A DNA stretch of 64,000 nucleotides from Nitrospira sp. (GTDB lineage Bacteria > Nitrospirota > Thermodesulfovibrionia > Thermodesulfovibrionales > Dissulfurispiraceae), in assembly GCA_002634385.1 (NCBI GenBank), contig NSJL01000005.1, positions 1 to 64,000 on the forward strand, in the 5' to 3' direction. A program made the translations under genes and the position numbers. This document shows, one piece after another, positions 29,878 to 62,355 of this stretch (its first letter is position 1; each line of letters opens with the position of its first letter). Below the pieces are notes generated by a model. The model did not search any database and was not told the origin of the DNA. It was given only the letters and a program-made list of their open reading frames with translations.

Positions 29878-30534
29878 ATGGAAATGGAAAAGGAACGGAT
29901 CGACGAGGCCCTGGAGCTTCTATGGGTGATGGGAGAAGAGGGATACGGGGAGGTAAAGCGCTTCGAGCTGAACTCCGACGATCCGGATATAGAACAGCTC
30001 ATCCTGTCCCTGAAGTCCGGGGGGCTGGTTTCCGTAGGGGATTCCCGCATTACCTTGACCGAGAAGGGCAATCACCTCGCAAGGGGGCTCATCAGGCGGC
30101 ACCGGCTTGCGGAGCGGCTCTTCACCGATGTTTTTGACCTCCCGAAGGATGCGGTATGCGAGGATGCCTGCAAGATGGAGCATATCCTGAGCGAGGAGCT
30201 TACCGACAGTGTCTGCACCTTTCTCGGACACCCCCCTACCTGTCCCCACGGAAAACCGATCCCCCGGGGGGAATGCTGTAAGAAGTATGCGGTGGACGTA
30301 CGTCCCGTGGTGGTCAGACTGACGGATTTCGAGGTGGGGCAACAGGGGAAGATCGTGTTTATTACCCCGTCCGAAGCGGCCCGAATAAGCCGTCTGAGCT
30401 CCATCGGCATCATTCCCGGGACTACCCTGCGGCTGCTCCAGCGAAAACCTTCCGTTGTCCTCCAGATCGACGAGACCACTATCGCCATCGATCCCGAGCT
30501 TGCCAGGGACATCTTTGTGAAAAAAGTGGTGTAA
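29878..30534 (+). CDS. DtxR/MntR-family metal regulator with FeoA domain
   Basis: A 218-residue metalloregulator. The N-terminal winged helix (about 5-65) is shortened. The DtxR dimerisation/metal-binding region has RRHRLAERLFTDVF, EDACKMEHILSEELTDSVCTFL and HPPTCPHGKPIPRGECC. A C-terminal SH3-like FeoA domain (about 143-218) begins VRLTDFEVGQQGKIVFI. The CxxxMEH and His/Cys residues match metal sites of the family. ATG 29878 has GGGAGGGAAAGAGG upstream. It lies about 650 bases upstream of the Ni/Fe hydrogenase operon on the same strand, so metal-dependent control of it is possible but unproven. Confidence 0.85.
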   Translation: MEMEKERIDEALELLWVMGEEGYGEVKRFELNSDDPDIEQLILSLKSGGLVSVGDSRITLTEKGNHLARGLIRRHRLAERLFTDVFDLPKDAVCEDACKMEHILSEELTDSVCTFLGHPPTCPHGKPIPRGECCKKYAVDVRPVVVRLTDFEVGQQGKIVFITPSEAARISRLSSIGIIPGTTLRLLQRKPSVVLQIDETTIAIDPELARDIFVKKVV

Positions 30535-31005: not shown

Positions 31006-31203
31006 ATGGGAGCGAAAATGATGTCGCTCGGGATCAAAGGGAAGTTTGGAGCCGGGTACCTGTTGATGACTGTTGTTCTGTACCTTCCTTTCCTGAGCGC
31101 TTGGAGCTCCACCGACAGGGTGGTCGAAATGTATGAGGCGGCCCTGAAGAAGGCAGCCTCTCACCAGGCGGGAGGAGCACTATGCCGGAAAAGCCGAAGT
31201 TGA
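31006..31203 (+). CDS. Small hydrophobic ORF upstream of the hydrogenase small subunit
   Basis: A 65-residue frame starting at ATG 31006, with AAAGAGGTGG correctly spaced upstream. It has one hydrophobic segment (about 14-32, FGAGYLLMTVVLYLPFL) followed by an amphipathic helix, and overlaps the next gene by 22 bases. The MSLGIKGKFGAGYLL start resembles the membrane entry of a chemoreceptor, so it may be the stub of a truncated receptor gene or a true leader peptide or small membrane protein. Being the first frame on the hydrogenase transcript, it may set translation of the small subunit. Confidence 0.35.
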   Translation: MGAKMMSLGIKGKFGAGYLLMTVVLYLPFLSAWSSTDRVVEMYEAALKKAASHQAGGALCRKSRS

Positions 31204-32171
31204 GCATGTACTGGGCAGCCTCATGCGGGGGATGCGAGATTGCCCTGGTGAACCTGCACGAGAAAATACTGGATGTCGATGCCGCTTTCGATTTCGTGTT
31301 CTGCCCCTGTCTTCTCGATACGAAAAAGAGGGATGTCGAGGCGATGCCCGACGGGAGCATTGCCCTCACTCTTTTCAACGGCGCCATACGGACCGAAGAG
31401 AACGAGGAGATGGCCCATCTGCTCAGAAGGAAATCCCGGCTTCTTATCGCCTTTGGGTCGTGCTCGTACGAAGGGTGCATTCCCGGTCTCGGGAACCTTT
31501 CTGAAAGGGATGAGTTCATGAGGACCGTCTACCTCGAGAATCCCACCACCGAGAACCCGGGCGGGATCGTCCCCCGGACTGAAACCGAAGTTCCGGAAGG
31601 GGTGCTGCATCTTCCCTCTTTTTACGACAGGGTCAGGACGCTGGCACAGGTGACCGGGGTGGATTATTTCATTCCCGGGTGTCCCCCCGAGCCCCATCAG
31701 ATCGGGAATGTGGTAGAAGCGGTGGTCCAGGGGAAGCCTTTGCCCCCAAAGGGGAGCGTTATCGGAGCGGGAAGGTCGTCGGTCTGCGAGGAGTGCTCCA
31801 GGAAAAGAGAGGATAAGAAGCTGAAGGGGTTTCGCAGGATCTACGAATTCATCCCCGACAGGGAGAAGTGCCTGCTCGATCAGGGAGTGCTCTGTATGGG
31901 GATTGCCACCCGGGACGGATGCGGAGCCCTCTGTCCCAAAGTGAATATGCCCTGCACCGGCTGCTACGGTCCGCCCGAGGGAGTGCTCGACCAGGGGGCC
32001 AAGATGGTGGCTGCCCTGGGATCCCTTCTCGATATCGGAGAGGTGAAGGGGCTGCCGGAGGAGGAAATCGACAGAAGAATCGATGCGCTGATCGACTCGA
32101 TTCCCGATTTTGCGGGGACCTTTTACAAGTACAGTTTGCCCGGCTCAATTCTGAAAGGGAGGATTGCATGA
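31182..32171 (+). CDS. mvhG: [NiFe] hydrogenase small subunit, group 3c (MvhG-like)
   Basis: A 329-residue electron-transfer subunit of a cytoplasmic F420-non-reducing/methyl-viologen-reducing hydrogenase. It begins MYWAASCGGCEIALVNL, the proximal [4Fe-4S] CxxC, and continues FGSCSYEGCIPGLGN and FIPGCPPEPHQI. It then has the C-terminal cluster cysteines (SVCEECSRKR, CLLDQGVLCMG, GALCPKVNMPCTGCYGPPEG). No signal peptide, so it is cytoplasmic, as in Mvh. GGGAGGAGC precedes ATG. The stop overlaps the large-subunit start by four bases (ATGA). Electrons should pass from the Ni-Fe site through this subunit to MvhD and HdrA encoded downstream. Confidence 0.9.
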   Translation: MPEKPKLSMYWAASCGGCEIALVNLHEKILDVDAAFDFVFCPCLLDTKKRDVEAMPDGSIALTLFNGAIRTEENEEMAHLLRRKSRLLIAFGSCSYEGCIPGLGNLSERDEFMRTVYLENPTTENPGGIVPRTETEVPEGVLHLPSFYDRVRTLAQVTGVDYFIPGCPPEPHQIGNVVEAVVQGKPLPPKGSVIGAGRSSVCEECSRKREDKKLKGFRRIYEFIPDREKCLLDQGVLCMGIATRDGCGALCPKVNMPCTGCYGPPEGVLDQGAKMVAALGSLLDIGEVKGLPEEEIDRRIDALIDSIPDFAGTFYKYSLPGSILKGRIA

Positions 32172-33655
32172 AGCGTATCACCATTGATCCGATCACACGG
32201 CTCGAGGGACACGGAAAGATAGAGATATTTCTCAATGAGGAGGGGAATGTCGCCAATACCTACTTCCAGGTGCCCGAATTGCGGGGATTCGAACAGTTTT
32301 CCGTGGGGCGTCTTGCTGAAGATATGCCGGTGGTGATGAACCGCATCTGTGGTGTCTGACCCGAAGCACACCATATGGCGTCAGTTAAGGCGCTCGACGA
32401 GCTTTTCGGAGTACAGCCCCCTTCAGCGGGGAGCAAAATAAGAGAACTGGTCTACATGGCTTTTTTCGTTACCGACCATGCCACCCATTTCTATGCACTG
32501 GGTGGGCCCGATTTCATCGTGGGACCCGATGCCCCGCCGTCCGAGAGGAACATTCTCGGGGTTATCCGGAAAGTGGGTCTGGATATCGGCAGGCAGGTGA
32601 TCGATTGCCGGGCACGGAATCACCAGGTGATCACCCTGTTGGGGGGCAGGGGGATACATCCGGCAGCGGGCCTCCCGGGGGGGTGGAGCAAACCCCTGAG
32701 CGGGGAGGAGAGGAAAGAGATCGAGGAGACCGCCCGGAAGAACATCGATTTCGCCCTCTTCACCCTCAAGCTCTTTGACGACATCGTCCTGAAAAGTCCG
32801 GCATACCTCGACCTCGTCACCTCTGATGTCTATCTGCACCGGACTTATTACATGGGGACCGTAGATGAGAGGAACAGGGCCAACTTCTTTGACGGGATGA
32901 TACGCATTGTGGACCCCGAAGGGAAAGAGCTCGTCAAATATCCTCCCCGGGAATACGCGACGCATATCGCCGAACATGTGGAACCATGGACGTATCTGAA
33001 ATATGCCTATCTCCGGCAGATCGGATGGAAGGGCTTTACGGACGGGAAGGAAAGCGGCGTCTATGCTGCTTCTCCCCTTTCGCGGCTCAATGTCTCGGAC
33101 AGCCTGGCTACCCCGAGGGCACAGGAACATTTCGAGAGGTTCTACGAGACCTTCGGGAGCAAAAAGGTGGACGGGCGGTATCAGCCCGTCCATTACCGGC
33201 TCGCTACTCATTGGGCAAGGGTGATCGAGCTCCTCTATGCGGCGGAGCGCATGCTCGAGCTTGCCACCGACCCCGAGATCACTTCGCCTGAAGTCAGGAA
33301 TATTCCCGGAAGGATTACGGGGGAGGGGATCGGATCCGTGGAGGCGCCGCGGGGTACCCTGACGCACCATTATGTTTCCGATGAAAGAGGGGTCTTGAAA
33401 AAGGTGAACCTCATCGTGGCGACGACGAACAACTATGCGCCGATGACGATGTCCATCAAGAGGGCTGCCGAGAAGCTGATCACCGGGGGCAGAGTCATCG
33501 AGGAGGGGCTGCTGAACAGGATAGAGATGGCCTTCAGACTGTACGATCCCTGCCTGTCCTGCGCTACCCATTCCCTGCCGGGGAAGATGCCCCTGACCGT
33601 GAACCTGAGAAACAGCAACGGCGAGATCCTCAGAACGTTTAAAAGGACAGAGTAA
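32168..33655 (+). CDS. mvhA: [NiFe] hydrogenase large subunit, group 3c, with in-frame UGA (selenocysteine) in the N-terminal Ni motif
   Basis: H2-activating subunit. A single frame of 496 codons has one internal TGA at 32357-32359 (codon 64). Around it the protein reads NRICGV-U-PEAHHMAS, exactly the L1 motif RxCGxCPxxHH with Sec in place of the second cysteine. The second nickel motif is DPCLSCATH (Cys462, Cys465, His468), with both cysteines, followed by a 27-residue tail that the adjacent protease (33808) should remove. The N-terminus ITIDPITRLEGHGKIEIF is the standard large-subunit start. Both sides of the UGA encode well-conserved sequence, so this is neither decay nor a frameshift. Automated calling would give a false 426-residue protein starting at 32375. 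By D. gigas numbering the replaced residue corresponds to bridging Cys68, not to terminal Cys530, the Sec site of classical [NiFeSe] enzymes. Confidence 0.9.
32379..32399 (+). promoter_or_regulatory. Candidate bacterial SECIS hairpin downstream of the UGA
   Basis: The RNA CGUCAGU-UAAGGC-GCU-C-GACG can form a 7-bp stem with one bulged C and a 6-base loop containing GG. The loop starts 29 bases after the U of UGA, within the 16-37 base window usual for bacterial SECIS elements. A second, overlapping pairing, CUGAC with GUCAG (32356-32360 with 32380-32384), would enclose the UGA. I cannot run a SECIS predictor; the fold is drawn by hand. Confidence 0.45.
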
Positions 33656-33807: not shown

Positions 33808-34284
33808 ATGAGGACGATTGTCATCGGATTGGGAAACCCCCTCCTCTCCGACGACAGCGTGGGGATCAAGGCGGTACGGGCAGTGAGGGAGCTCCTGGAC
33901 GGACAGAACAGGGGTGATATCGACGTAATCGAGCTCTACGCAGGGGGCATCCGTCTGATGGATGCGTTGCGGGGGTATGACAGGGCGGTGCTTATCGATG
34001 CCATGGTGACCGGGACCGTGGAACCGGGGACAGTGCGACGTCTTTCTCCGTCCGACCTCCTCTCCACGAAAAACAGCCTCTCGGTCCATGACATGGATCT
34101 GCCTACTGCCCTTGAGTTGGGACGGATGCTGGGAATCCCCCTCCCCTCCGAAATCGTCATATGGGGCATAGAGGCGAAGGAGGTAGAGACTTTCGGGGAG
34201 GAGCTCACGGAGGAAGTTGCTGGTGCTCTCCCCCGGGTGGTGGATCGTATCTGCGGGGAGCTGGATACCAACGCGGCGCAGTAA
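33808..34284 (+). CDS. Hydrogenase maturation protease (HyaD/HycI family)
   Basis: A 158-residue endopeptidase that removes the C-terminal extension of a [NiFe] large subunit after nickel insertion. The N-terminal VIGLGNPLLSDDSVGIKAV motif carries the first acidic metal ligand region, DVIELYAGGIRLMDALRGYDRAVLIDAM the second, and SVHDMDLPTALELGRMLG the histidine. The partner substrate is the large subunit just upstream, whose tail follows DPCLSCATH. The ATG follows the pyrimidine arm of the palindrome with no clear ribosome-binding site, so translation may rely on coupling across the hairpin. Confidence 0.9.
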   Translation: MRTIVIGLGNPLLSDDSVGIKAVRAVRELLDGQNRGDIDVIELYAGGIRLMDALRGYDRAVLIDAMVTGTVEPGTVRRLSPSDLLSTKNSLSVHDMDLPTALELGRMLGIPLPSEIVIWGIEAKEVETFGEELTEEVAGALPRVVDRICGELDTNAAQ

Positions 34285-34304: not shown

Positions 34305-36266
34305 ATGAAAATCGGCGTATATTTCTGCAAGTGCGGCACGAATATTTCCGGTAAAGTGGATGCGGATGACGTCAGAGAGAGGATCGGAACCGGTTCCGGC
34401 GAGGTGCATTTCAGGTCCGTCGATTTCATGTGTTCCGAGGAAGGGAAGGCGTTCCTGGAGAAGGAAGTGCGGGAAAAAGGCCTGGAGCGTGTTGTGGTCT
34501 CCGCCTGTTCCCCCCGGGAGCACGAGGCCACCTTCATGCGGGTACTTGCAAAGGCGGGGCTGAATTCCTACCTGCTGCAGATGGTCAATGCGAGAGAGCA
34601 GGTTGCATGGGTGACGGAGGAAAGGGCGAAGGCAACGGAAAAGGTGGCGCGGTATATCAATGCCGCAGTCAGAAGGGTGGCTCTCCATGATCCCCTCGAA
34701 AAAAAGGAGGTCGATGCGTGTCCGGACGTGCTGGTGATCGGCGCCGGACCTGCGGGCCTGAAGCTTGCCCTGAGCATGGCGGAGGCGGGACGGAAAGTGG
34801 TGGTGGTGGAAAAGACTCCCGTCATCGGCGGCATGCCGGTGCGCTTCGAGGAGCTTTTCCCCGCGATGGAGTGCGGCCCGTGTATGCTGGAGCCGGTGAT
34901 GGGAGATGTCCTCCATGGAGAGCACGCGGAAAAAATAGAGCTGCTGACCATGGCACAGGTGACGGACGTGGTGGGCTCGTACGGTAATTTCACCGTAACG
35001 ATACGGCAGGCGCCCCGCTATACCGATATGCGGAAATGCATCGGGTGCGCGGAATGCATCGAACCGTGCCCCGTATCGGCGCAGAACGAATTCAATTGCG
35101 GGCTGAGCGGGCGGAAGGCCATTTCGTTCCCCTTTGCGGGGGCGCTGCCCAATGCGCCCTTTATTGACGGATCCCTCTGTTTGAGAGAGAGAGGAGAGGA
35201 ATGCCGTCTCTGCAAGGATGCCTGCCCGATGGAGGACGCCATCGATTTCGGGGATACGGAAAAGATCCTCAAGAGGAACGTGGGAGCCATTGTCATCGCC
35301 ATCGGTTCCGGTCTTTATGACTGCAGGAACATACCGGCCCTGGGATACGGAACCTTTCCGGACGTGTATACCGGGGTCGAATTCGAGAGGATAATGGCAT
35401 CCAACGGTCCCACGGAGGGAGAGATCAGGACGACGGAGGGTACCCCTCCCGGAGCGGTGGCGATAGTCCACTGCGTGGGCAGCCTTGACGGGAACCATAA
35501 GGAATACTGTTCGGGAGTATGCTGCCAGTATGCGTTCAAGTTCAACCGTATGATCGAAAAGAAGCTGCCGGGAACGAAAGTGTATCACCTTTACAAGGAG
35601 CTTGCCCTTTCCGGAAAAGAGGAGTTCAGCCTCTATCAGCACGCCAGGAACAATCCGGATACCACCTTTATCCGGTATGCCGATATAGGAGATCTGAAGG
35701 TGACCCGGCAGAGTGGAGGGAAGGTTATGCGGTTCAGGAATGTCATGGGGGAGGAGGGCGATATTCCCGTAGATATGGTGATCCTGTGTCCGGCGGTGGT
35801 TCCGGTAAAGGAGGCGAACGCGCTCGGTGCCCTGCTGGAGGCGGCCCACGACCGGTTCGGGTTCTTCGAGGAACTGCACGGCAGAATGGATTCAGCGCAG
35901 AGCACGATAAAAGGTGTTTACCTGGCCGGAACCTGCCAGGCACCCATGGATATACAGAAGGCCATGAACCAGGGCATGGCGGTGGCAGGATATACCCTGT
36001 CGGGGCTGGTGGCAGGGAGGAAGATCGAGATCAACCCCCTGGCGGCCCTTGTTGATGCCGACCGCTGCTCGGGATGCCGGGTCTGCATCTCCGTCTGCCC
36101 CTACCGGGCGATCTCCTACGATGCTGAAAAGGGGGTTTCCGCGGTGAATGATCTCCTCTGCCAGGGGTGCGGTACCTGTGTAGCGGCATGTCCGTCGGGG
36201 GCCGCCACCGGTAACCATTTTACGACACGGGAAATTTTCGCTGAAATTGAGGGGGTGCTGGCATGA
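34305..36266 (+). CDS. hdrA: Heterodisulfide reductase subunit A-like flavoprotein
   Basis: A 653-residue iron-sulfur flavoprotein, the electron-bifurcating core of Hdr complexes. It has the N-terminal cysteine motif YFCKCGTNISG, a CSPREHEATF segment, and an FAD Rossmann motif VLVIGAGPAGLKLALSMAEAG near 143. MECGPCMLEP, at the site that is Sec in some methanogens, here is TGC and encodes Cys. Ferredoxin-type clusters follow (CIGCAECIEPCP; CRLCKDACPM) and a C-terminal pair (CSGCRVCISVCPYRA and CQGCGTCVAACPSGA). It overlaps mvhD by four bases. HdrB and HdrC are not in the window, so the disulfide-reducing or other acceptor module must be encoded elsewhere. Confidence 0.92.
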   Translation: MKIGVYFCKCGTNISGKVDADDVRERIGTGSGEVHFRSVDFMCSEEGKAFLEKEVREKGLERVVVSACSPREHEATFMRVLAKAGLNSYLLQMVNAREQVAWVTEERAKATEKVARYINAAVRRVALHDPLEKKEVDACPDVLVIGAGPAGLKLALSMAEAGRKVVVVEKTPVIGGMPVRFEELFPAMECGPCMLEPVMGDVLHGEHAEKIELLTMAQVTDVVGSYGNFTVTIRQAPRYTDMRKCIGCAECIEPCPVSAQNEFNCGLSGRKAISFPFAGALPNAPFIDGSLCLRERGEECRLCKDACPMEDAIDFGDTEKILKRNVGAIVIAIGSGLYDCRNIPALGYGTFPDVYTGVEFERIMASNGPTEGEIRTTEGTPPGAVAIVHCVGSLDGNHKEYCSGVCCQYAFKFNRMIEKKLPGTKVYHLYKELALSGKEEFSLYQHARNNPDTTFIRYADIGDLKVTRQSGGKVMRFRNVMGEEGDIPVDMVILCPAVVPVKEANALGALLEAAHDRFGFFEELHGRMDSAQSTIKGVYLAGTCQAPMDIQKAMNQGMAVAGYTLSGLVAGRKIEINPLAALVDADRCSGCRVCISVCPYRAISYDAEKGVSAVNDLLCQGCGTCVAACPSGAATGNHFTTREIFAEIEGVLA

Positions 36267-36709
36267 CGGCAGGGAAAGGGGAGGGGCCGCAAAGAGATTT
36301 CGAGCCGAGGATTGTGGGGTTCCTTTGCAATTGGTGCTCCTATGCCGGTGCGGATAAGGCCGGGACCGCGCAGAACCCGTATCCGCCCAATGTCAGTGTC
36401 ATACGAGTGATGTGCAGCGGGAGGGTCGATCCCCAATTTGTCCTGAAAGCCTTCGAAAAGGGAGCCGACGGTGTTATAATACTCGCGTGTCATCCGGGAG
36501 ACTGCCACTATAAGGAGGGCAACTACCGCGCGGTCCAGCGTCACCGCATGCTGTTGCGGCTCCTGGGACAGCTCGGCATCGAAGAGCAACGGTGCCGTTT
36601 CGATTATGTATCTGCGGGGGAGGGGGACAGGTTCGTCTCTGTGATCACGGATACAGTAGAGGCGGTCAGAAGATTGGGACCGCTACGGCGGGGGAACGGC
36701 GGACAATAA
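36263..36709 (+). CDS. mvhD: Methyl-viologen-reducing hydrogenase delta subunit (MvhD)
   Basis: A 148-residue [2Fe-2S] protein that connects MvhAG to HdrA. The family signatures FLCNWCSYAGADKAG, PPNVSVIRVMCSGRVDP and LACHPGDCHYKEGNY are all present. The final cysteine of HPGDC, which is Sec in some relatives, is encoded by TGC here. Its ATG overlaps the hdrA stop, implying a fixed stoichiometry. The gene after it is TusA-like. Confidence 0.92.
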   Translation: MTAGKGEGPQRDFEPRIVGFLCNWCSYAGADKAGTAQNPYPPNVSVIRVMCSGRVDPQFVLKAFEKGADGVIILACHPGDCHYKEGNYRAVQRHRMLLRLLGQLGIEEQRCRFDYVSAGEGDRFVSVITDTVEAVRRLGPLRRGNGGQ

Positions 36710-38810: not shown

Positions 38811-39268
38811 CCGGTGATCCGGGACAAAGACCCGCCTGCCCCCGGGAGATCCGGCTGCTCACCTTCACTGTCGGGGGAGTCGCCCTTGGAGTGGATGCGG
38901 ACCAGGTAGAAGGATTCCTCGAACCGGGGCAGGCCGTTTCGGCTGTTCCGGAAGGAATACCGGTCTATGACTTTCACGAGATAGTCCCTTTCCGGGGAGA
39001 ATCTTCCCGGACTGCAGCACCCTGGACTCTTTTTGTCAGACATCCGGAGACCCCCTACGGAGTTCTGATCGACAGACCCGAAGAGATTGTTCCGATACCG
39101 GTGGATTCCCTTCAGCCCCTGCCCCCTCTCCTCGCCTCCTGCTATGGAAGGCGGGGAGCTTTCTGGGGAGCGTGGGTGAGGGAGGACGCGATTATCCTGC
39201 TCGTCGATTTTTACCGACTGGGAGGGGGGAGAAATAAAATGTCAGGCCGATCGGAGGCAAAGAGATGA
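38807..39268 (+). CDS. CheW-like coupling protein 2, divergent
   Basis: A 153-residue shorter, divergent CheW-domain protein. IRLLTFTVGGVALGVDADQVEGFL at the start and YGVLIDRPEEIVPIPVDSLQPLP later keep the CheW pattern, but the central hydrophobic binding region is shortened. Its ends overlap both neighbours by four bases (ATGA), so it is translationally coupled between CheW1 and the receptor. Two CheW copies flanking one receptor is a Wsp-like trait. Confidence 0.75.
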   Translation: MTGDPGQRPACPREIRLLTFTVGGVALGVDADQVEGFLEPGQAVSAVPEGIPVYDFHEIVPFRGESSRTAAPWTLFVRHPETPYGVLIDRPEEIVPIPVDSLQPLPPLLASCYGRRGAFWGAWVREDAIILLVDFYRLGGGRNKMSGRSEAKR

Positions 39269-40971
39269 AGCTTTTTTTCAGAAAGACAGGCGGCGTCCAC
39301 AGCTCCCTGAACAACCAGGTCTTCTTGTTCTCGGTCATTCCCATGATCGTCGTCTTCTGTATCCTGACCTATCTTGCCGTATCCACCATTATCGGGCGGG
39401 GTGAAGAAAAGTTGCGGATATACAGGAACATGCTGCTCAATGAGCGCAAGGAGATGATAAGAGGCTATACGGACCTAGCGGTCAGGGCCATAGAGACCCT
39501 TCCCCGGAATGACGCGGAAAGGGCGATCAAGAGGCTCAAATATGGAAAGAACGGCTATTTCTGGATAAATGATTTCAACCATTTCATGATCTCCCACCCG
39601 GACCCGAAGCTGGAGGGGAGGGATACCAGCGACCTCCGGGACCCGAACGGGGTTTATATTCTGAAAGAGATTGTCAGGGTATGCAGGGAGAACGGGGAGG
39701 GCTTTGTCGCCTATTCATGGAAAACGCCTAATGACGAGAGGCTGCAACCGAAGATTTCCTATGCGAAAGCGATCGGGAAATGGAACTGGATCGTCGGGAC
39801 GGGCATCTACGTAAATGACATCGATGAGACGGTCGTTAAGGAGAAAGAGAGGATACAGAGGGAAGTCGCGGCCCTCATACGGAAGATCATTATCATGTCC
39901 CTTGTGGTTATGGCAGTTCTCATCTTCCTGGTCAGGTTTTTCGTCGATCGCCTGATCAACAAACCGGCGGAAAAAATAACCGAAACAGTGAAGAGATTCG
40001 ATAATGACCTTACGGTCCGCATACCGGTGACCACCCGTAACGAGATAGGCGAGCTTGCTTCCTGGTTCAATCACTACATCGAGGGGATGCGCGATGTCGT
40101 CAGCAAGGTTTCCGGAGCCGTGGCGGGGATTACGTCCTACGCTCACGAAGTTTCCCGCGCTGTCGAGCAGCAGGCGACGGTGGCCTCCCAGCAATCCGCC
40201 GCCGTAGCCGAGATCACCTCCACCATGGAAGAGCTTTCGGCCTCATCCACCCAGATAGCCGATCACTCCCATTCCGTGGTGGGAATCGCCTCCAAGACAT
40301 GGGAGGATACCAAGAAGGGAGCGAATGCGGTGGAGTCGGTCATTTTCAAGATGAACGAAATCCATAACGATAACCAGGCCAGTATCCGTGAGATTGTCGA
40401 ACTGGGAAGGAAGTCGAAGGAGATCTCGAAGGTGATGGAGATCATCAATTCGATTGCGGACCAGACCAAGCTCATCGCTTTCAATGCAGCCCTGGAGGCG
40501 TCCAGCGCCGGGGAGTCCGGCAGGAGGTTCGGTGTCGTGGCAGTGGAGATCCGCAGGCTTGCCGACAGTGTCATGGAGTCCACCGGCGAAATCGAAGCGA
40601 AGATCAATGAGATCCAGGAAGCGATCAACCGCCTGGTGATCGCGTCGGAAAAGGGTTCGAAGGGCATCCAGGAGGGAATGGAATACTCGAACCAGACAGC
40701 GACGCTGCTTATCGATATTGTGGACGCGGCCCAGGCCACCACCGATGCCGCCCGGCAGATTTCCCTCTCGACCCAGCAGCAGAAGACGGCAAGCAATCAG
40801 GTGGTGACTGCCTTGCGTGAAATCGTGGCGGGGGCAGGGCAGACTTCCGATTCCATAAACCAGATCAGTGCTATAAGCAGAGAGCTGTCCGCCCTTTCCG
40901 ATGATCTGAAGCACCTGGTGGAACGGTTCAAGGTACAGGAAACCCCGGCTGCGGGTGGCGAAGGACGATGA
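39265..40971 (+). CDS. Methyl-accepting chemotaxis protein with Cache sensor
   Basis: A 568-residue receptor. TM1 is about 22-45. The periplasmic single-Cache-type domain (46-205) has GYFWINDFNHFMISHPDPKLEGRD and WNWIVGTGIYVNDID. TM2 is about 210-232, followed by HAMP (KRFDNDLTVRIPVTTRNEIGEL) and a long signalling coiled coil whose hairpin tip reads IADQTKLIAFNAALEASSAGE. The tip departs slightly from the common E-A-A-R-A-G-E. Methylatable Glu/Gln sites flank it. GYFW-type Cache_2 sensors commonly bind small organic ligands. Confidence 0.9.
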   Translation: MKLFFRKTGGVHSSLNNQVFLFSVIPMIVVFCILTYLAVSTIIGRGEEKLRIYRNMLLNERKEMIRGYTDLAVRAIETLPRNDAERAIKRLKYGKNGYFWINDFNHFMISHPDPKLEGRDTSDLRDPNGVYILKEIVRVCRENGEGFVAYSWKTPNDERLQPKISYAKAIGKWNWIVGTGIYVNDIDETVVKEKERIQREVAALIRKIIIMSLVVMAVLIFLVRFFVDRLINKPAEKITETVKRFDNDLTVRIPVTTRNEIGELASWFNHYIEGMRDVVSKVSGAVAGITSYAHEVSRAVEQQATVASQQSAAVAEITSTMEELSASSTQIADHSHSVVGIASKTWEDTKKGANAVESVIFKMNEIHNDNQASIREIVELGRKSKEISKVMEIINSIADQTKLIAFNAALEASSAGESGRRFGVVAVEIRRLADSVMESTGEIEAKINEIQEAINRLVIASEKGSKGIQEGMEYSNQTATLLIDIVDAAQATTDAARQISLSTQQQKTASNQVVTALREIVAGAGQTSDSINQISAISRELSALSDDLKHLVERFKVQETPAAGGEGR

Positions 40972-42035
40972 AACAGATCCGGGTGCTTGTGGCTGACGAC
41001 AGCGGTTTTGCCCGTGAATTGATCATCGCCATCCTGTCCACCGACAGTGAGATCAGGGTGGTGGGAGAGGCGGTGAACGGGCGGGATGCAGTGGAAAAGG
41101 TCAAGGCTCTCAAGCCCGATATCGTCACCCTTGATATCGAAATGCCGGTCATGGACGGGCTGGAGGCCATCGAGGAGATCATGGCATCCCATGCCGTACC
41201 GATTCTTGTGGTTACCACTCGGGGAGATGCGAGGACCGCGTATGCTGCCATTGCAAAAGGGGCGCTCGACCTGGTGGCAAAGCCTGATATCAATTTGGAA
41301 GAGGCACAGGAATTCATCGATAAAATCAAGCTGCTGTCCAAAATCCGGGTGATCACCCATCTCAGCGGGAAGAGAATACCGAAAGAGGAGAAGGAGGCCC
41401 TGAAACCCGTATTCAAGGGGGGGGCGTCGGAGGACAGAATTGTCGCTATCGCTTCTTCCACCGGCGGACCCGAAGCCCTCTCCATCATTCTGTCCCGGCT
41501 TCCTTCCCCTTTCCCCTGCCCCATCGTGATCGCCCAGCATATTTCGGACGGATTCGTTTCCGGGATGGTGGAATGGCTGAAGAAGATAGCGAAGCGGGAA
41601 GTGAAAGTGCCGGCTGCAGGAGAGCCCCTTGCCCCCGGGGTGGCATATGTGTCCCCGTCGGAGCGACATATGGAAGTGACCGGGAGCCGGAGAATCGCTT
41701 TTGTGGAGAGGCACCCGAAGGATATCTACCGTCCCTCCTGCGATCTGCTCCTGTCTTCCGTAGCGGAGGTGTACGGATCCCGGGGGATCGGCATCATACT
41801 GACCGGCATGGGGAGTGACGGGGTGCAAGGGCTGGAGAGGATCAAGACTGCGGGGGGAGTTACCGTTGCCCAGGATGAAAAAACCTCTGTCGTCTTCGGG
41901 ATGCCGAAGGTGGCCATAGAGCGGGGGTGTGTCGATTCCATCCTTTCCCTCGACGAGATAAGCGGCGAAATTACGAGGCTGTTGTATGCGGGGGGGACGC
42001 CCGCCGATTCCGCTCTCCGGTCCGTCAGGCGATAA
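40968..42035 (+). CDS. cheB: Protein-glutamate methylesterase CheB
   Basis: A 355-residue receptor methylesterase. The N-terminal receiver (VLVADDSGFARELI, Asp in IVTLDIEMPVMDG) is linked to the esterase domain with catalytic Ser in IASSTGGPEAL, His in VIAQHISDGF and Asp in LTGMGSDGVQG. Its start overlaps the receptor stop (ATGA). It corresponds to WspF in a Wsp-type pathway. Confidence 0.95.
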   Translation: MKQIRVLVADDSGFARELIIAILSTDSEIRVVGEAVNGRDAVEKVKALKPDIVTLDIEMPVMDGLEAIEEIMASHAVPILVVTTRGDARTAYAAIAKGALDLVAKPDINLEEAQEFIDKIKLLSKIRVITHLSGKRIPKEEKEALKPVFKGGASEDRIVAIASSTGGPEALSIILSRLPSPFPCPIVIAQHISDGFVSGMVEWLKKIAKREVKVPAAGEPLAPGVAYVSPSERHMEVTGSRRIAFVERHPKDIYRPSCDLLLSSVAEVYGSRGIGIILTGMGSDGVQGLERIKTAGGVTVAQDEKTSVVFGMPKVAIERGCVDSILSLDEISGEITRLLYAGGTPADSALRSVRR

Positions 42036-42037
42036 CC

Positions 42038-43516
42038 ATGGAGGTAACCCTTTTCAAGGATCTTGTCAGAGAGAGGTGCGGTCTCTCCTTTGATGAGGTA
42101 AGGATGGCCACCCTGGCGGACAGTCTTCAGGCCAGGATGGCGGAGAGGGGGATCGAATCATCGGTACAGTATCTCGATTGCCTGATAAACGATCAGGACG
42201 AATTTCATACCCTGGTGAACCTCCTGACCGTGAACGAGACCTATTTTTTCCGCGAGCCGGCCCATCTGGAACTGCTCGCAAAGAGGATCGTCCCCCGGCT
42301 GCTTGCCGGAAAAAGGCCGGGAGAGAGGATACGGATAATGAGCGCGGGATGCTCCACGGGGGAGGAGCCCTATTCTCTGGTCATTGCCCTCATGGAGCAC
42401 TACGGTGTTGCACTGCAGCATTTTCTTGCGGTTATCGGAGCCGACATCGACAGCGACGCGATTGCGAAGGCGAAAAAAGGAGTCTACAAAAACCATTCCT
42501 TCCGGGGATTCCCCGACTCCCTGAAGAGCAAGTATTTTGAGCCCGTGGAAGGAAACCGTTTCCGCATCAGGAAGTGCATCAGGGAACGGGTGGAGTTCCG
42601 AACCCTCAACCTCCTCAGCGATGCGTATCCCGAAGAGGTACGGGGGATGGACGTAGTGTTTTACCGGAATGTCTCCATCTATTTCGAGCCGGAAACACAG
42701 AAAAACATTTTCAGGAAACTTGCAGACCTGCTGAACGAAAACGGCTGCCTCTTCGTAAGCTCCACCGAGACCCTCTCCCATACTATCGGGGTGCTTCCCC
42801 TGGTGGAAATAGAAGGCGTCTTCCTGTACCGGAAGAGCACCGGAGACCCTCTTGAGGGAACGAGGAGATCCCGGCGCAGCAGGGAGCTGGAGCCTCCCGA
42901 AAGGGAGCAACCCCTTCAACCCCTCTCCTCCCCCCGTCCTCCCTCTGCCGTTCCGAAGGAATCCGTGCCGCGAGGAACGAAGGGTGCTGGAGGGAGAGGG
43001 GATGTCAGTATTCTTTTCGAGCAGGCGCTTTCACTGGCGCATGAAAAGCGGTATGGAGAGGCCTTGCGTCACGTCGAAATCCTTATCGCGCAGGAGCCCT
43101 CCCTTCTCAAGGCGTACCTGCTGAAGGCGGGCATCCTGATCAATCTGAAGAGGCTCGACGAGGCCGAGAGCGCCTGTCTGCAGGGGATGGAGCGGGACCG
43201 CTGGTGTCTGGAAGCCTTTCTTCTCCGGGGGGTGATCGCAAAGCTCCGGAATGACGAGGAGGACGCCCTGAAGAGGTTCAAGGAAGCGCTGTATATTCAG
43301 TCTTCGTGCTGGCTTGCCCATTTCTGCCTGGCGGAGATACACCGGTCCCGGGGGGAGACGGACAGGGCGTGCCGCGAGTATGAGATTGTCGTCAAGCTCC
43401 TGGAAAGGGGAAACCTGAATGATCCCGGATTCACGTTCTTCCCCCTTTCCTTTTCCGTGGAGCAGATAGCGCATCTCTGCCGGCACCACCTGTCAAAACT
43501 GAAAAAGGCAGAGTAA
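42038..43516 (+). CDS. cheR: CheR methyltransferase with C-terminal TPR domain
   Basis: A 492-residue receptor methyltransferase. The N-terminal helical domain leads to the SAM site in RIMSAGCSTGEEPYSL, IGADIDSDAIAKAKKG and VVFYRNVSIYFEP. A Pro/Arg-rich linker (about 270-320) is followed by TPR-like repeats (330-470, for example RYGEALRHVEIL). The TPR extension is characteristic of WspC rather than of ordinary flagellar CheR. ATG 42038 follows the cheB stop by two bases; the longer frame runs back into cheB. Confidence 0.92.
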   Translation: MEVTLFKDLVRERCGLSFDEVRMATLADSLQARMAERGIESSVQYLDCLINDQDEFHTLVNLLTVNETYFFREPAHLELLAKRIVPRLLAGKRPGERIRIMSAGCSTGEEPYSLVIALMEHYGVALQHFLAVIGADIDSDAIAKAKKGVYKNHSFRGFPDSLKSKYFEPVEGNRFRIRKCIRERVEFRTLNLLSDAYPEEVRGMDVVFYRNVSIYFEPETQKNIFRKLADLLNENGCLFVSSTETLSHTIGVLPLVEIEGVFLYRKSTGDPLEGTRRSRRSRELEPPEREQPLQPLSSPRPPSAVPKESVPRGTKGAGGRGDVSILFEQALSLAHEKRYGEALRHVEILIAQEPSLLKAYLLKAGILINLKRLDEAESACLQGMERDRWCLEAFLLRGVIAKLRNDEEDALKRFKEALYIQSSCWLAHFCLAEIHRSRGETDRACREYEIVVKLLERGNLNDPGFTFFPLSFSVEQIAHLCRHHLSKLKKAE

Positions 43517-43643
43517 AACAGAAAAAGAAAGGTAAAGACAGAATGAAGCAGAGAACTGCAGAGAGGAACAGAAAAGAGAAAAACAGCAGTTTTTTGTCTC
43601 CTCTGTCTCATTCTGTCTCACTCTGCCTTATCTCTGTTTTTTA
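43503..43643. repeat. Long purine/pyrimidine palindrome between cheR and cheA (copy C)
   Basis: About 140 bases overlapping the last codons of cheR. The left half has AAAGACAGAATGAAGCAGAG and GAACAGAAAAGAG units. The right half has their complement, CTCTGTCTCATTCTGTCTCA and CTCTGCCTTATCTCTG. The centre AAACAGCAGTTTTTTGTCTC (about 43580-43599) is nearly the same as the centre of copy A. It ends 10 bases before the cheA ATG; AGGAG of the cheA ribosome-binding site begins right at its edge. Confidence 0.75.
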
Positions 43644-43653
43644 GGAGTTTGTC

Positions 43654-45966
43654 ATGGCATTTGACCTATCGAAGTTTCTGGCGCGGTTTGTGGAAGAGGC
43701 CCGTGAGCATGTGGAAAAGCTCAACGCGGGCCTGGTCCTGCTTGAGAAGGACCCGGACGACACGGAAAACATCAACGCTATTTTCCGCTCCGCACATACC
43801 CTTAAGGGGTCTTCGCGCATGATGAAGCTCACCCCGATTACCGAGGTTGCGCATAAAGTGGAGGACGCGCTGGGTGCCCTGCGGGAAAAAAAGATCCGTC
43901 ATTCCCGGGAGCTTGCCGATCTCCTCTTCCGGGGAATCGATACGATTTCCGCCATGATCGAGAAGACGGCGGAGGGACAGGCCATCGAGACGGACAGCAG
44001 TACCCTTTGCGAGGACCTGATGAAAGCGGCGGAAGGTTTTTTTGCCGGGATGCCGGTGCATGCGGGAAAAGAGGAGATGTCTTCCGCTCTCCCGCAGGTA
44101 AATGTTTCCGGCTCCGCGGGGGTCCCGAACGAAGGAGCGGAGGCGCCCGTAACGGAGACCCTGCGGGAGACTCCCGGAGAGGGGAGGCAGAGGGAGGGAA
44201 CGCGCCCTTCGGAGCAGAGTCCTCCGGAACAGAGTACAGCCAGGGGGGGCAAGGCAGGGGAGACGGTCCGCATCAATGCGGAGAAACTGGATGAGCTCAT
44301 CAAACTGGTGGGTGAAATCGTATCGAACCAGAACCGTCTGAAGCAGCGCCTGGCCGATGTCAAGGACATGGAGAGGATTGCGAACAGGTGCATAAGGCTT
44401 GCTTCGCGGCTCGATCAACAGGATGCGGAGAACGGGGAGGGAATTCTCTCCATGACCCGTTCCCTTTTTGTAAAGAGCAGGCAGCTTGTCTCCCAGGTGA
44501 AGGATGATGCCGTTCTCCAGGAACTCTTGACGGGAGAGCTCCAGGAAAAGGCTCTTTTGTTGAGGATGGTCCCCCTTTCGACGGTGTTCGATTCCCTGCA
44601 CCGGATGGTCCGGGATATCGCCCATGCCATGGGAAAGGAGGTGGACCTCATTATCGAGGGGAGCGAAATTGAGCTGGATAAAAAAATGGTCGAAAAGCTC
44701 GGGGACCCGCTTGTCCACATGCTCAGGAACGCCATCGATCACGGCATCGAGGAGAGGGGAGAGCGAAGGCTGGCCGGAAAGACGGAGAGGGGAACCGTAC
44801 GGGTATCCGCCGGGTACGATGCCGGGAGCGTTGTCATAGAGGTGAGCGACGACGGCCGGGGCATTCCCCTCGAAAAGATAAAAGAGAGGGCCCTGCGCAA
44901 GAAAATGCTCAGCGCGGATGCGGTGGAGGGGATGTCGGAAGCGGCTCTTGTGGACCTGATCTTTCATCCCGGCTTCAGCACCAGCACTATTATTACCGAT
45001 GTTTCCGGCAGGGGGGTGGGGATGGACGTGGTGAAGAGGAACATCGTCGAAGAACTGGGGGGGGCTATCGGCATCGAAACGGGAGAGGGCAGGGGGACCA
45101 CCTTCTCCCTGCGTCTTCCTCTCACCCTTGCGATCATGCGACTTCTGCTCGTCACGGTCTCGGGCACTCCCTTGGCCCTTCCTGCCCACTACGCCAGCGA
45201 AATTATACGGGTTCCGGAGAGCAGGCTCATCACGGTGGTGGATAAGAGGGCGGTCAGGCTCCGCGAGGAATTCATCCCTATGGCAGCCCTCGATGCGCTC
45301 CTGAAGCTTCCCGGAAGGGGCCCGGCACCACCGGCGCGCCCGGGGGGGGACGTGCTCATTCTTATCGTATATGTGGGCAACGAGAAGCTCGGTCTCGTTA
45401 TCGATGCCCTCCTCGACGAAGAGGACAGGGTGATCAAGACCCTCCCTGCCCATATGAAAGGGATACAGCTTGTCTCGGGCGTGACATTATCGGGGAAAAG
45501 CGAGATCATCAATGTGCTGAATGTCCCGGCGGTAATCGCTGCCGCGCGGGAAGTAAAGGAGACGAAGCCGTCCCGTGATGGCATGAAGGAGGAAGGGAGC
45601 GCGGTGCATATCCTCGTGGTGGACGACTCCGTCAATACCCGGGAGATAGAAAAGAGTATTCTGGAAGCGTACGGGTACCGGGTAACCCTTGCCGGCGACG
45701 GGAGGGAGGCGTTGGAGAAGACGCGGGAGTTCAGGTATGACCTTGTGATTACCGATGTCGAGATGCCGCATCTGGATGGCTTTTCGCTCACGGAGAGGCT
45801 GAGAAGCGACAGCACGTACCGGGGTACCCCCATCATTATTGTTACCTCGCGGGAAAAGGAGGAGGACAAGAGGAAGGGTATTCAGGTGGGTGCCGATGCC
45901 TATATCGTCAAAGGAGCTTTCGACCAGTCCAACCTGCTGGAAACCATCCAGAACCTTGTGGGGTGA
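43654..45966 (+). CDS. cheA: CheA-REC hybrid chemosensory kinase
   Basis: A 770-residue kinase. The Hpt domain (phospho-His in IFRSAHTLKGSSRMM) is followed by a variable Glu/Pro-rich linker and the dimerisation helices from VRINAEKLDELIKLVGEIV. The HATPase has HMLRNAIDHGIE, VSDDGRGI and GRGVGMDVVKRNI; then a CheW-like regulatory domain and a C-terminal receiver (ILVVDDSVNTREIE, Asp in LVITDVEMPHLDG, Lys at the YIVKG position). Fusion of CheA with REC is found in WspE and other alternative-function systems. It lies after a long palindrome separating it from cheR. Confidence 0.95.
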   Translation: MAFDLSKFLARFVEEAREHVEKLNAGLVLLEKDPDDTENINAIFRSAHTLKGSSRMMKLTPITEVAHKVEDALGALREKKIRHSRELADLLFRGIDTISAMIEKTAEGQAIETDSSTLCEDLMKAAEGFFAGMPVHAGKEEMSSALPQVNVSGSAGVPNEGAEAPVTETLRETPGEGRQREGTRPSEQSPPEQSTARGGKAGETVRINAEKLDELIKLVGEIVSNQNRLKQRLADVKDMERIANRCIRLASRLDQQDAENGEGILSMTRSLFVKSRQLVSQVKDDAVLQELLTGELQEKALLLRMVPLSTVFDSLHRMVRDIAHAMGKEVDLIIEGSEIELDKKMVEKLGDPLVHMLRNAIDHGIEERGERRLAGKTERGTVRVSAGYDAGSVVIEVSDDGRGIPLEKIKERALRKKMLSADAVEGMSEAALVDLIFHPGFSTSTIITDVSGRGVGMDVVKRNIVEELGGAIGIETGEGRGTTFSLRLPLTLAIMRLLLVTVSGTPLALPAHYASEIIRVPESRLITVVDKRAVRLREEFIPMAALDALLKLPGRGPAPPARPGGDVLILIVYVGNEKLGLVIDALLDEEDRVIKTLPAHMKGIQLVSGVTLSGKSEIINVLNVPAVIAAAREVKETKPSRDGMKEEGSAVHILVVDDSVNTREIEKSILEAYGYRVTLAGDGREALEKTREFRYDLVITDVEMPHLDGFSLTERLRSDSTYRGTPIIIVTSREKEEDKRKGIQVGADAYIVKGAFDQSNLLETIQNLVG

Positions 45967-46036
45967 GCCTTTGGGGGAAGTGGAGTGAAACGCCTTTGCT
46001 GCCAAAGGCGCAGCTTTTAGAGAGGAGGGGGTCTCT

Positions 46037-47251
46037 ATGGTTTCTTCTGAGGTGAAAGTGCTCGTTGTGGATGACGATTCTTTCGTACGGGACATGCTGG
46101 CCATGATTCTCGGAACGGGGGGCTATGATGTGACGACAGCGGGGAACGGGGCCGACGCTCTTTCACGGTACAGCCGGGAGCCCGGCATCGGTCTCGTCAT
46201 CTCGGACATGAATATGCCGGAGATGAACGGCCTCGAACTGATCAGGAACCTGCGCGGGGCGGAGGACGATGTGCCGATTGTCATTCTTACCGGGAACAAC
46301 GAGATCTCCGTTGCGGTGGAGGCGCTGAACAGCGGGGCCAGCGACTATCTCCTGAAGGACGAGAATATCCAGGATACCCTTCTGCTGTCCGCGGCCAAGG
46401 TGCTGGAGAAGCATCATCTGAAGAGGCAGAACCTGCAGTTGATGAGGGACCTCGCCCTGAAGAACAGTGAGCTGGAAAAATCGAATGGTGAGCTTCTTGC
46501 GCTGAATGCATTGAAAAACAAGTTCCTCGGTATTGCCGCACATGATCTCAGGAACCCCCTGACCTCCATAAGGGGACTGAGCGAAATCCTTATCGGCGAG
46601 ACCTTCGGGCCGCTGACGGAAGAGCAGAAGGAGTATCTCACCATCATCAATACCACTTCCGACGAGATGCTTTCCCTGGTGAACGACCTGCTCGATGTCT
46701 CCGTTATCGAGAGTGGGAAGCTCGAGCTCCTCATCGCCCCCCGTTCCCTGAAGGAAGTGATCGAGGAGAGGATCCGGATGAATACAGTGGTGGCGGAGCG
46801 GAAAGGGATCTCCCTCCAGTCCGGGCTGGCCGGGCCGGACGAGGTGCCCGATATCCTTTTCGACGCACACCGTATTGCGCAGGTGATCGATAACCTTGTA
46901 GGCAATGCGATAAAGTTCTCTCCCCCCGGCTCTTCCCTCCTCATCAGTCTTGCCCGGGAGGGGAATGCCGCAAAAGTCAGCGTATGCGACGAGGGGCCCG
47001 GCATCCCTCCCGAAGAGCGTTCCAAGCTCTTCGGGGAGTTCCAGAAGCTCAGCGTGCAGCCGACGGGCGGAGAAAGAAGCACCGGACTGGGTCTGGCAAT
47101 CGTGAAGAAGATTGTGGATGCGCACCGGGGAAGCCTCTCAGTGGAGAGCCAGGTGGGCTCGGGTTCCACTTTCAGCTTTTTTCTTCCCCTGGATTCCGGG
47201 GTGGAAGAATGCGGACGGGAACAATTCGGTACTCATCAGGAAGGGAAGTGA
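46037..47251 (+). CDS. Response regulator-histidine kinase hybrid
   Basis: A 404-residue soluble protein: N-terminal receiver (VLVVDDDSFVRDML, Asp in LVISDMNMPEMNG), a coiled-coil connector (about 125-160), HisKA with phospho-His in IAAHDLRNPLTSIRG, and HATPase with DNLVGNAIKF, CDEGPGIPPEE and STGLGLAIVKKI. No membrane segment or sensor domain. It lies between CheA and the diguanylate cyclase (its stop is adjacent to the next ATG), so it may relay the chemosensory signal to the cyclase's Hpt/REC domains. Confidence 0.88.
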   Translation: MVSSEVKVLVVDDDSFVRDMLAMILGTGGYDVTTAGNGADALSRYSREPGIGLVISDMNMPEMNGLELIRNLRGAEDDVPIVILTGNNEISVAVEALNSGASDYLLKDENIQDTLLLSAAKVLEKHHLKRQNLQLMRDLALKNSELEKSNGELLALNALKNKFLGIAAHDLRNPLTSIRGLSEILIGETFGPLTEEQKEYLTIINTTSDEMLSLVNDLLDVSVIESGKLELLIAPRSLKEVIEERIRMNTVVAERKGISLQSGLAGPDEVPDILFDAHRIAQVIDNLVGNAIKFSPPGSSLLISLAREGNAAKVSVCDEGPGIPPEERSKLFGEFQKLSVQPTGGERSTGLGLAIVKKIVDAHRGSLSVESQVGSGSTFSFFLPLDSGVEECGREQFGTHQEGK

Positions 47252-48919
47252 ATGGCGGACCCGGCGGATTCGATACGCGAAAGATTGAGAGCGCTGCGCG
47301 AGGCGTACCGGGCGCAGATGCCTGAAAAGGTCAGCCAGATAGAAGAGGTCTGGAGCAGCCTGCTGAAGGATTCCGGGGAGAGGGACGACCTGGATGCAGT
47401 GCTCCGCCTGGTGCACACCCTTGCGGGGTCGTCCGCCTCTTTCGGTCTCAAAGAGGTGAGTGCGGCCGCCCGGTCTCTGGAGGAGGAATTGAAAACGGCG
47501 GTGGAGAAGGGGTACGATTCCCGGAGAGTCGCCTCCCTGCCGGTTTCTGCGCTCCTGGAGAAGCTGAAAGAGGTCTGCGGCGGATCCTGCCAGGATGCCG
47601 AGGAGGCGACACGGGAAGCCGGGGAAACGAAATTCCCGGGCGGAACGCTTGAAGGAGGACCCCCCCCTGAGAGAAAAACCATCTTCCTGGTAGAGGATGA
47701 TCCTGTCCTGCTGGAGAGCCTGTCTCTCCAGATAGGCCACTTCGGGTACGAGGTGCAGGGTTTCTCTGCGCTGGCTCCTGCCCGGGAGGAGGCGAGGAGG
47801 TCTTTTCCCGCTGCCATTATTATGGATATGTCCTTCCCCGAAGGGGTCTTCGCCGGTGCCGAGACCGTGGCGGCTGTCCAAAGGGGGAGAGAGGAGAGAA
47901 TCCCCATCATTTTCATTTCGAGCCGCAATGATTTTACCTCCCATCTCCAGGCGGCCCGCGCCGGCGCCGACGCCTATTTTGCAAAACCCGTAAACGTGGG
48001 CGTCCTTATCGACAAGCTGGACATGATCACCAGAAAAGAAGTAGTTGAGCCCTACCGTATCCTTATTGTCGATGACGACGCGGATCTCGCTTCCTATCAT
48101 GCGCTGATTCTCCAGGAGGCGGGGATGACCACCTTTGTGGTGACCGATCCCCTGCAGGTAGTCTCCTCCCTCTCCCGTTTCAACCCGGATCTTATTCTCA
48201 TGGACATGTATATGCCGGAGTGCGGCGGGCAGGAGTTGGCGACAATTATCCGCTGGATGGATACGTACGTCAGCATTCCCATCGTGTTCCTTTCCGCGGA
48301 GACGAACCTTTCGAAGCAGCTGTCCGCCATGAGCACGGGGGGGGACGACTTCCTCACCAAACCGATTCGTCCGGAGCACCTGATCGCATCGGTGACCATG
48401 AGGGCGGAACGCATGCGTATCATCCGTTCCTTTATGGACCGTGACAGTCTTACCGGGCTGCTCAACCATACGAAGACGAAGGAGCAGCTCGAGATATGCC
48501 TGGAAAGAGTGAAGAGACAGAAAGGGCGGCTTGCTTTCGCCATGGTCGATATCGACAGGTTCAAGAAAGTAAATGATACGTACGGACATCCCGTGGGAGA
48601 CAGGGTACTCCTGAGCCTGTCCCGTCTCTTTCAGCAGCGTCTCCGTAAAACCGATATCATCGGACGCTACGGGGGAGAGGAATTTGCAGTGATCCTCAAT
48701 GACATCGATGCGCCCGGCGCGGCGAAGGTTCTCGATGCCCTCCGTATCAGTTTTTCAGGAATACGGCACCACGGTGAGGGGGGAGAATTTTCCGTGACCT
48801 TCAGTTGCGGCATCGCTTCCTTTCCCGGATACGGCGATCCGGCGCAGCTGAGCAATGCCGCGGATAAGGCGCTGTATGAGGCGAAGAACAGCGGCAGGAA
48901 CCGGGTTGTGATAAAATAA
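47252..48919 (+). CDS. Hpt-REC-REC-GGDEF diguanylate cyclase
   Basis: A 555-residue output enzyme making cyclic-di-GMP. The N-terminal Hpt has its His in LRLVHTLAGSSASFG. Receiver 1 is IFLVEDDPVLLES with Asp in AIIMDMSFPEG; receiver 2 is ILIVDDDADLASY with Asp in LILMDMYMPECGG. The GGDEF domain has MVDIDRFKKVNDTYGH, catalytic GGEEF, and the allosteric inhibitory RxxD (RKTD) five residues upstream, so product feedback is intact. The ATG abuts the preceding stop. It is the WspR-like output of the cluster, but with an Hpt and an extra REC, pointing to phosphorelay input. Confidence 0.92.
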   Translation: MADPADSIRERLRALREAYRAQMPEKVSQIEEVWSSLLKDSGERDDLDAVLRLVHTLAGSSASFGLKEVSAAARSLEEELKTAVEKGYDSRRVASLPVSALLEKLKEVCGGSCQDAEEATREAGETKFPGGTLEGGPPPERKTIFLVEDDPVLLESLSLQIGHFGYEVQGFSALAPAREEARRSFPAAIIMDMSFPEGVFAGAETVAAVQRGREERIPIIFISSRNDFTSHLQAARAGADAYFAKPVNVGVLIDKLDMITRKEVVEPYRILIVDDDADLASYHALILQEAGMTTFVVTDPLQVVSSLSRFNPDLILMDMYMPECGGQELATIIRWMDTYVSIPIVFLSAETNLSKQLSAMSTGGDDFLTKPIRPEHLIASVTMRAERMRIIRSFMDRDSLTGLLNHTKTKEQLEICLERVKRQKGRLAFAMVDIDRFKKVNDTYGHPVGDRVLLSLSRLFQQRLRKTDIIGRYGGEEFAVILNDIDAPGAAKVLDALRISFSGIRHHGEGGEFSVTFSCGIASFPGYGDPAQLSNAADKALYEAKNSGRNRVVIK

Positions 48920-49024
48920 AAGGAAGCCGGCAGTGTACCTGCTAAAAGGAGTGAATGCGATGTATCGTGCCGTCCCCCCGCTGATTCTACGCGCCCTCCC
49001 CTGGACTCCGGGCCCCTGCTTCCC

Positions 49025-54442: not shown

Positions 54443-54465
54443 CTGCCGGCAAGGAGGAGCGGGGA

Positions 54466-62203: not shown

Positions 62204-62355
62204 TGCGCAGTACCCCACTCGGTCCTCCCTCGTTTTCTGAATTTTTTGCTCTCCTACTTTACGGCTGATCCCCTCCGTTGTCAAGGGCGCCTGCCCATTC
62301 CGGGAAGATGTTATAATGAGCGGATGCGGAAATATGCGAGGAGGCACCGGAATAT

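Follow-up and report, generated by a model that had tools for sequence, protein, structure and literature searches.

The analyzed DNA (64,000 nt, referred to below as the window) contains a gene for a [NiFe] hydrogenase large subunit, whose reading frame includes a TGA codon exactly where the nickel-binding motif L1 should carry its second cysteine. This raises the question of whether the TGA is a lesion, a stop codon decoded in some other way, or a codon for selenocysteine (Sec), which would then occupy a ligand position different from that in the described [NiFeSe] hydrogenases. We consider, with a probability of about 0.9, that the product of the gene is a functional group 3c large subunit, with Sec specified by UGA codon 64, and that it is one member of a broader class of hydrogenases in which Sec recurs in L1.

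The large subunit and its operon

The initial annotation had placed the TGA at the second cysteine of L1 and had stated that both L2 cysteines are retained, and reading of the 495-residue frame, which has a single internal stop, confirmed both points (Table 1). The list of open reading frames splits the gene at the TGA into an upstream piece and a 426-aa downstream frame. A search of the host's own genome, which is a draft (77 contigs; estimated contamination 5.9%), identified one full-length copy of the large subunit gene with exactly one TGA.

Table 1. Features of the hydrogenase locus (positions within the window).
Feature	Position	Strand	Remarks
Small subunit, MvhG/VhuG-like	31182..32171	+	Profile matches; 4-nt overlap with the start of the large subunit gene
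Group 3c (MvhA/VhuA-like) [NiFe] hydrogenase large subunit gene	32168..33655	+	495 codons and a stop codon, with a single TGA inside the frame
L1 nickel-binding motif RICGV-U-PEAHH	32342..32374	+	
In-frame TGA	32357-32359	+	Codon 64; second cysteine of L1, position of the bridging Ni-Fe ligand; read as probable Sec
SECIS-like hairpin	32377..32394	+	Stem GGCGTC (32377-32382), loop AGTTAA (32383-32388), stem GGCGCT (32389-32394)
L2 motif DPCLSCATH	33545..33571	+	Both nickel-binding cysteines retained
Hydrogenase maturation protease (HycI/HupD family)	33808..34284	+	
HdrA-like iron-sulfur flavoprotein	34305..36266	+	Without in-frame TGA
MvhD/VhuD (FlpD) subunit	36263..36709	+	Without in-frame TGA

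In [NiFe] hydrogenases, the second cysteines of L1 and L2 bridge the nickel and iron atoms, and the first cysteine of each motif is a terminal ligand. The equivalents of the two bridging residues in the D. gigas enzyme are Cys68 (L1; codon 64 here) and Cys533 (L2).

The large subunit scores above the cut-off of Pfam family PF00374 (NiFeSe_Hases). When Cys was written for Sec in the query, the NCBIfam VhuA model matched with an E value of 3e-112, although the match fell short of the model's equivalog cut-off. In the June 2026 release of NCBIfam, no model scored high enough to pass its cut-off with either the window protein or the group 1 Sec protein (see below) that was scanned. Among solved structures, 7t2r and 5odc are the best matches in sequence, and MvhA 5odc is the best match in fold (TMt 0.95). 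The AlphaFold model of the large subunit (pLDDT 86.9) predicts, for the whole gene, the same fold as that expected from a Cys enzyme. Codon 64 can be assigned to the bridging L1 cysteine on the basis of the motif, the way the protein aligns with MvhA 5odc and shares its fold, and the established structure of [NiFe] enzymes. Since this cysteine bridges the two metals, Sec64 should bridge them as well, which agrees with the position proposed for it in the initial annotation.

The large subunit gene is the second of a tight operon of five genes, encoding (i) an MvhG-like small subunit, (ii) the large subunit, (iii) a maturation protease, (iv) an HdrA-like protein and (v) MvhD. The presence of MvhG, MvhD and HdrA in the operon, as well as the L1 and L2 motifs and the large-subunit fold, is that expected of group 3c. 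The same gene order is kept around two relatives with Sec (L012 and L032) and five with Cys (L013-L015, L017 and L045). No hdrB or hdrC was noticed beside the operon, at this locus.

Directly 5′ of the operon lies a gene (29878-30534) for a DtxR/MntR-like metal-dependent repressor with a FeoA domain; it is possible that this protein exerts metal control over the hydrogenase operon. On the 3′ side, the region 39265-51295 is occupied by a large chemotaxis and two-component cluster (MCP, CheR, hybrid CheA, histidine kinases and a diguanylate cyclase). Further downstream are a gene for a 714-aa protein with zero NCBIfam matches (54163-56307, plus strand) and one whose product contains CFI-box-CTERM and choice-of-anchor D domains (60416-62347, minus strand).

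Distribution of TGA codons in the L1 motif

An untargeted protein search of genome contigs yielded 63 loci. Among those with a readable L1, codon 64 is TGA in two (L012 and L032) and TGC or TGT in the rest. A search of the phylum revealed TGA at the same codon in two further loci, L088 (genome G230) and L089 (G248), the latter of which looks identical to L012. In an alignment of 28 sequences, residue 64 is Cys in all other members. The exchange of Cys for Sec at codon 64, which the initial annotation had recommended looking for among group 3c proteins, was thus found, with TGA in other species and conservation on both sides of the codon.

We also ran the DNA pattern ICG(V/I)-TGA-xxxH, with a reversed control pattern, on 176 genomes of the order. 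The pattern gave 21 matches and the control none; upon reading, 20 of the 21 proved to be hydrogenase large subunits, and the frame of the remaining one (G292) showed it to be a chance match. In a careful tree, for which Sec was written as Cys in every row, the four distinct Sec copies (including that of the window) formed a single clade, which had a support of 87/94 and was present in 90% of bootstrap trees, and the Sec of the window was therefore probably inherited, rather than being a private mutation. An early quick tree, superseded by this one, had not grouped the window with the remaining Sec copies.

A second group 3c lineage, 47% identical, carries the motif TICGV-U-RGVHF. It was present in 12 genomes of the order, some of them near single-contig assemblies (several cases); close Cys forms also occur (L127 and L128). 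It is likely that the carriers belong mostly to the genus Thermodesulfovibrio, which has cultured members: the Thermodesulfovibrio record L032 matches G422, a genome with the genus label that most carriers share. Beyond the phylum (Nitrospirota), a wider pattern, ICG(V/I/M)-TGA-xxxH, revealed group 3c genes with Sec in L1 in the phylum of Geobacter (G662, G500 and G536) and in Chloroflexota (G878 and G882). When 95 group 3c proteins were combined in one tree, at least three changes of the Sec state were required.

Several candidates were dropped. Frame reading identified chance pattern matches in short frames (L134, L153, L155-L157, L161, L164-L167, L169-L171 and L173). The stop-containing rows of G083, G062, G099 and G332 were not taken as Sec; in the first three of these, L1 has Cys, and the stop that was counted is consistent with the normal end of the gene.

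Comparison of the window gene with L012 gave dN values of 0.07 for the part upstream of the codon and 0.12 for the part downstream (dS is saturated); the corresponding dN/dS ratios in the second lineage were 0.02 and 0.04, respectively. This constraint indicates that translation past the UGA is under selection. The view of the initial annotation that decay is unlikely is therefore upheld, as the frame is intact and both conservation and constraint continue beyond the TGA.

The feature had been ascribed to group 3c, where it does occur, but it is not limited to this group: it recurs in group 1, often at both L1 cysteines. Group 1 type large subunits with the motif RICGVUTTVHS are encoded in G232, G109 and G184 and, in the phylum of Geobacter, in G593, G564 and G584, and one with RICGVUPTAHG in G166. 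A protein search of the 176 genomes of the order, using one group 1 Sec sequence as the query, gave matches in 121; at E 1e-100, the window's own genome gave none. According to a hand count, about 63 of the matching rows contain two in-frame TGAs and about 25 contain one.

Of the double-TGA genes, 29 distinct ones were read, and every one of these encodes RI-U-GV-U or RF-U-GV-U, so that both L1 cysteines are replaced, with the L2 motif DPC(M/L/I)AC intact; the two UGAs lie 9 nt apart. These enzymes apparently have an active site with two selenocysteines, as judged from their genes. The 29 loci are L177-L186, L188, L190-L203, L209, L210, L215 and L217. The single-TGA genes that were read have CxxU, never UxxC, and Cys-only forms are also present. 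Genes with RFCGV-U were observed at L204-L208 and L213 (G186, G124, G113, G152, G322 and G278). The group 1 tree contains several switches of the Sec state. Taken together, dozens of relatives from three phyla appear to have the single or the double exchange. A two-TGA pattern run on 395 genomes in the phylum of G438 gave five matches, all with short open frames, none of which was accepted.

Such switching bears on the question of whether Sec confers any benefit. Repeated interchange of Sec and Cys among closely related genes is what would be seen if Sec were inserted to no advantage and its state drifted neutrally among selenium users, an explanation that is compatible with a functional Sec64. 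We regard it as unlikely, however, since the two-Sec forms of group 1 are kept in about 60 loci in many families of the order, and since lineages far apart have repeatedly acquired Sec on this one ligand, an outcome that drift would not favor.

Decoding of UGA codon 64

The genome was searched for the genes selA, selB, selC and selD, and all four were found: SelB (370 bits) and tRNA-Sec (71 bits; anticodon UCA) are encoded on contig C62, SelA (613 bits) on C59 and SelD (325 bits) on C44. The host SelD (L084, G000:C44:37974-38888) is itself a Sec protein, with an in-frame TGA in KAAGU-AAK. In the window, TGA terminates 22 of the 46 long non-overlapping frames, including that of the small subunit of the same operon; as an ordinary stop elsewhere in the window, it makes a general change of the code unlikely.

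A SECIS-like hairpin begins 17 nt past the TGA of the window gene, and every Sec copy of group 3c has a short stem approximately 17-35 nt downstream of its UGA. Hairpin strength was scored against synonymous recodings generated with each gene's own codon use. The mean z of the apical hairpin was -1.95 in Sec genes (n=14) and -0.45 in Cys genes (n=83; p 2.6e-6), and the comparison gave p 4e-8 in an enlarged group 3c set and p 0.009 in group 1, these values being optimistic because related sequences were counted as independent. The window copy taken alone has a hairpin marginally stronger than its synonymous recodings, which is a weak signal (z about -1.5). A search of Rfam around the codon yielded nothing above chance, as expected for a bacterial SECIS.

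Most Cys homologues lack such a signal. Two close relatives with Cys at residue 64, L090 (G014) and L092 (G130), speak against the hairpin as a mark of Sec, since theirs, at the site of the SECIS, is unusually strong and equals that of Sec genes (z -3.6 and -2.8, respectively); it is perhaps a remnant of a reversion from Sec to Cys. The RFCGVU genes of group 1 that were read have, for the most part, a different and striking 8-bp stem, ACGCACTG-GCTT-CAGTGCGT, directly after the UGA (it is weaker in L207), and it is likely that this hairpin constitutes a SECIS.

The UGA might instead be decoded as another amino acid, e.g. as Cys if a suppressor tRNA were present or the code were altered, which would make the protein an ordinary [NiFe] hydrogenase. 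The Cys of the homologues at codon 64 would fit such decoding, and a Cys-tRNA(UCA) might be encoded elsewhere in the genome, the reading of the UCA anticodon having covered tRNA-Sec; we nevertheless find this very improbable in view of the stop function of TGA in the window, the complete Sec machinery with its Sec-type SelD, and a hairpin signal that favors the Sec copies. It is also very improbable that the gene is a decaying or an ordinary Cys gene whose TGA arose by nonsense mutation or through an error of sequencing or assembly. TGA is one base from TGC and TGT, the nearest relatives have Cys, and the genome assembly is a draft; but several other species (near single-contig genomes included) have TGA at the same codon, downstream constraint is strong, and the TGA always falls on the same ligand position, with no match to the reversed pattern in the order.

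With UGA read as Sec, the following course can be proposed: (i) codon 64 would be decoded by SelB and tRNA-Sec, aided by the hairpin just 3′ of it, (ii) the selenium of Sec64 would take the place of the sulfur that bridges nickel and iron, (iii) a C-terminal assembly peptide would be removed by the protease encoded nearby, and (iv) electrons from H2 would pass through MvhG and MvhD to HdrA. The last step follows what is known of the family, in which operon content of this kind suggests that H2 oxidation supplies an HdrA module with electrons, as it does in Mvh-Hdr complexes.

Relation to known hydrogenases

The described [NiFeSe] hydrogenases (those of Desulfomicrobium baculatum, HysAB of Desulfovibrio vulgaris, and VhuU and the Sec-type FrhA of methanogens) share with the window enzyme a single UGA-encoded Sec among the four nickel ligands. 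In those enzymes Sec comes first in L2 (DPUxxC) and is a terminal nickel ligand, whereas here it is second in L1 (CxxU), at the Ni-Fe bridge, and L2 has Cys at both positions. The group 3c complex MvhADG-HdrA of Methanothermococcus thermolithotrophicus (MvhA, 5odc) has in common with the window the fold, the L1 and L2 motifs and the MvhG/HdrA/MvhD gene set. The window enzyme differs from MvhA in being bacterial, in its sequence (approximately 39% identical) and in the replacement of the second L1 Cys by Sec.

Equivalent bridging positions have been engineered in Hyd-1 and Hyd-2 of E. coli, in which Sec was placed at each of the four nickel ligands (Evans, Krahn et al.; PMC11212049, PMC9961374). 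These variants are laboratory-made and have lowered activity, whereas the window enzyme is natural and known from its sequence. All four Hyd-2 variants matured and oxidized H2, at lower activity, which indicates that a bridging Sec site can work (PMC11212049). A review of Hyd-1 ties a large gain in O2 tolerance to the natural, terminal Sec position (PMC9961374). The changes in oxygen sensitivity and redox tuning that the initial annotation expected of a bridging Sec go beyond this evidence and are a conjecture, as would be an effect on catalysis.

In a May 2026 review of prokaryotic selenoproteins, hydrogenase large subunits appear as UxxC only, and the UxxU entries that were read are non-hydrogenases (PMC13188914). 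A review from 2022 gives the same UxxC motif for hydrogenases (PMC9312934), and a survey from 2006 includes selenoproteins of the FrhA type (PMC1794560). No report of a natural hydrogenase with Sec in L1 was found in the open-licence literature that was searched; one may have appeared elsewhere. A Sec-containing [NiFe] hydrogenase with its selenium on L1 instead of L2 is therefore apparently undescribed. The feature itself is real, conserved and recurrent. It is probable that this is a second [NiFeSe] class, which evolved repeatedly in groups 3c and 1, with Sec always on the bridging L1 residue and, in many group 1 enzymes, also on the neighboring terminal one. The second L1 cysteine would thus be the favored site in both groups, and the first may also be replaced.

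As TGA annotated as a stop splits such genes or causes them to be dropped, annotations of many Nitrospirota genomes may be wrong for a main H2-oxidizing enzyme. The literature that was searched places the selenium of natural [NiFe] hydrogenases at one terminal ligand, and ideas on selenium-linked O2 tolerance and H2 production have been built on that site. Natural enzymes with Sec at the bridge, single or double, would provide a direct test of which ligand matters, with their close Cys relatives as controls.
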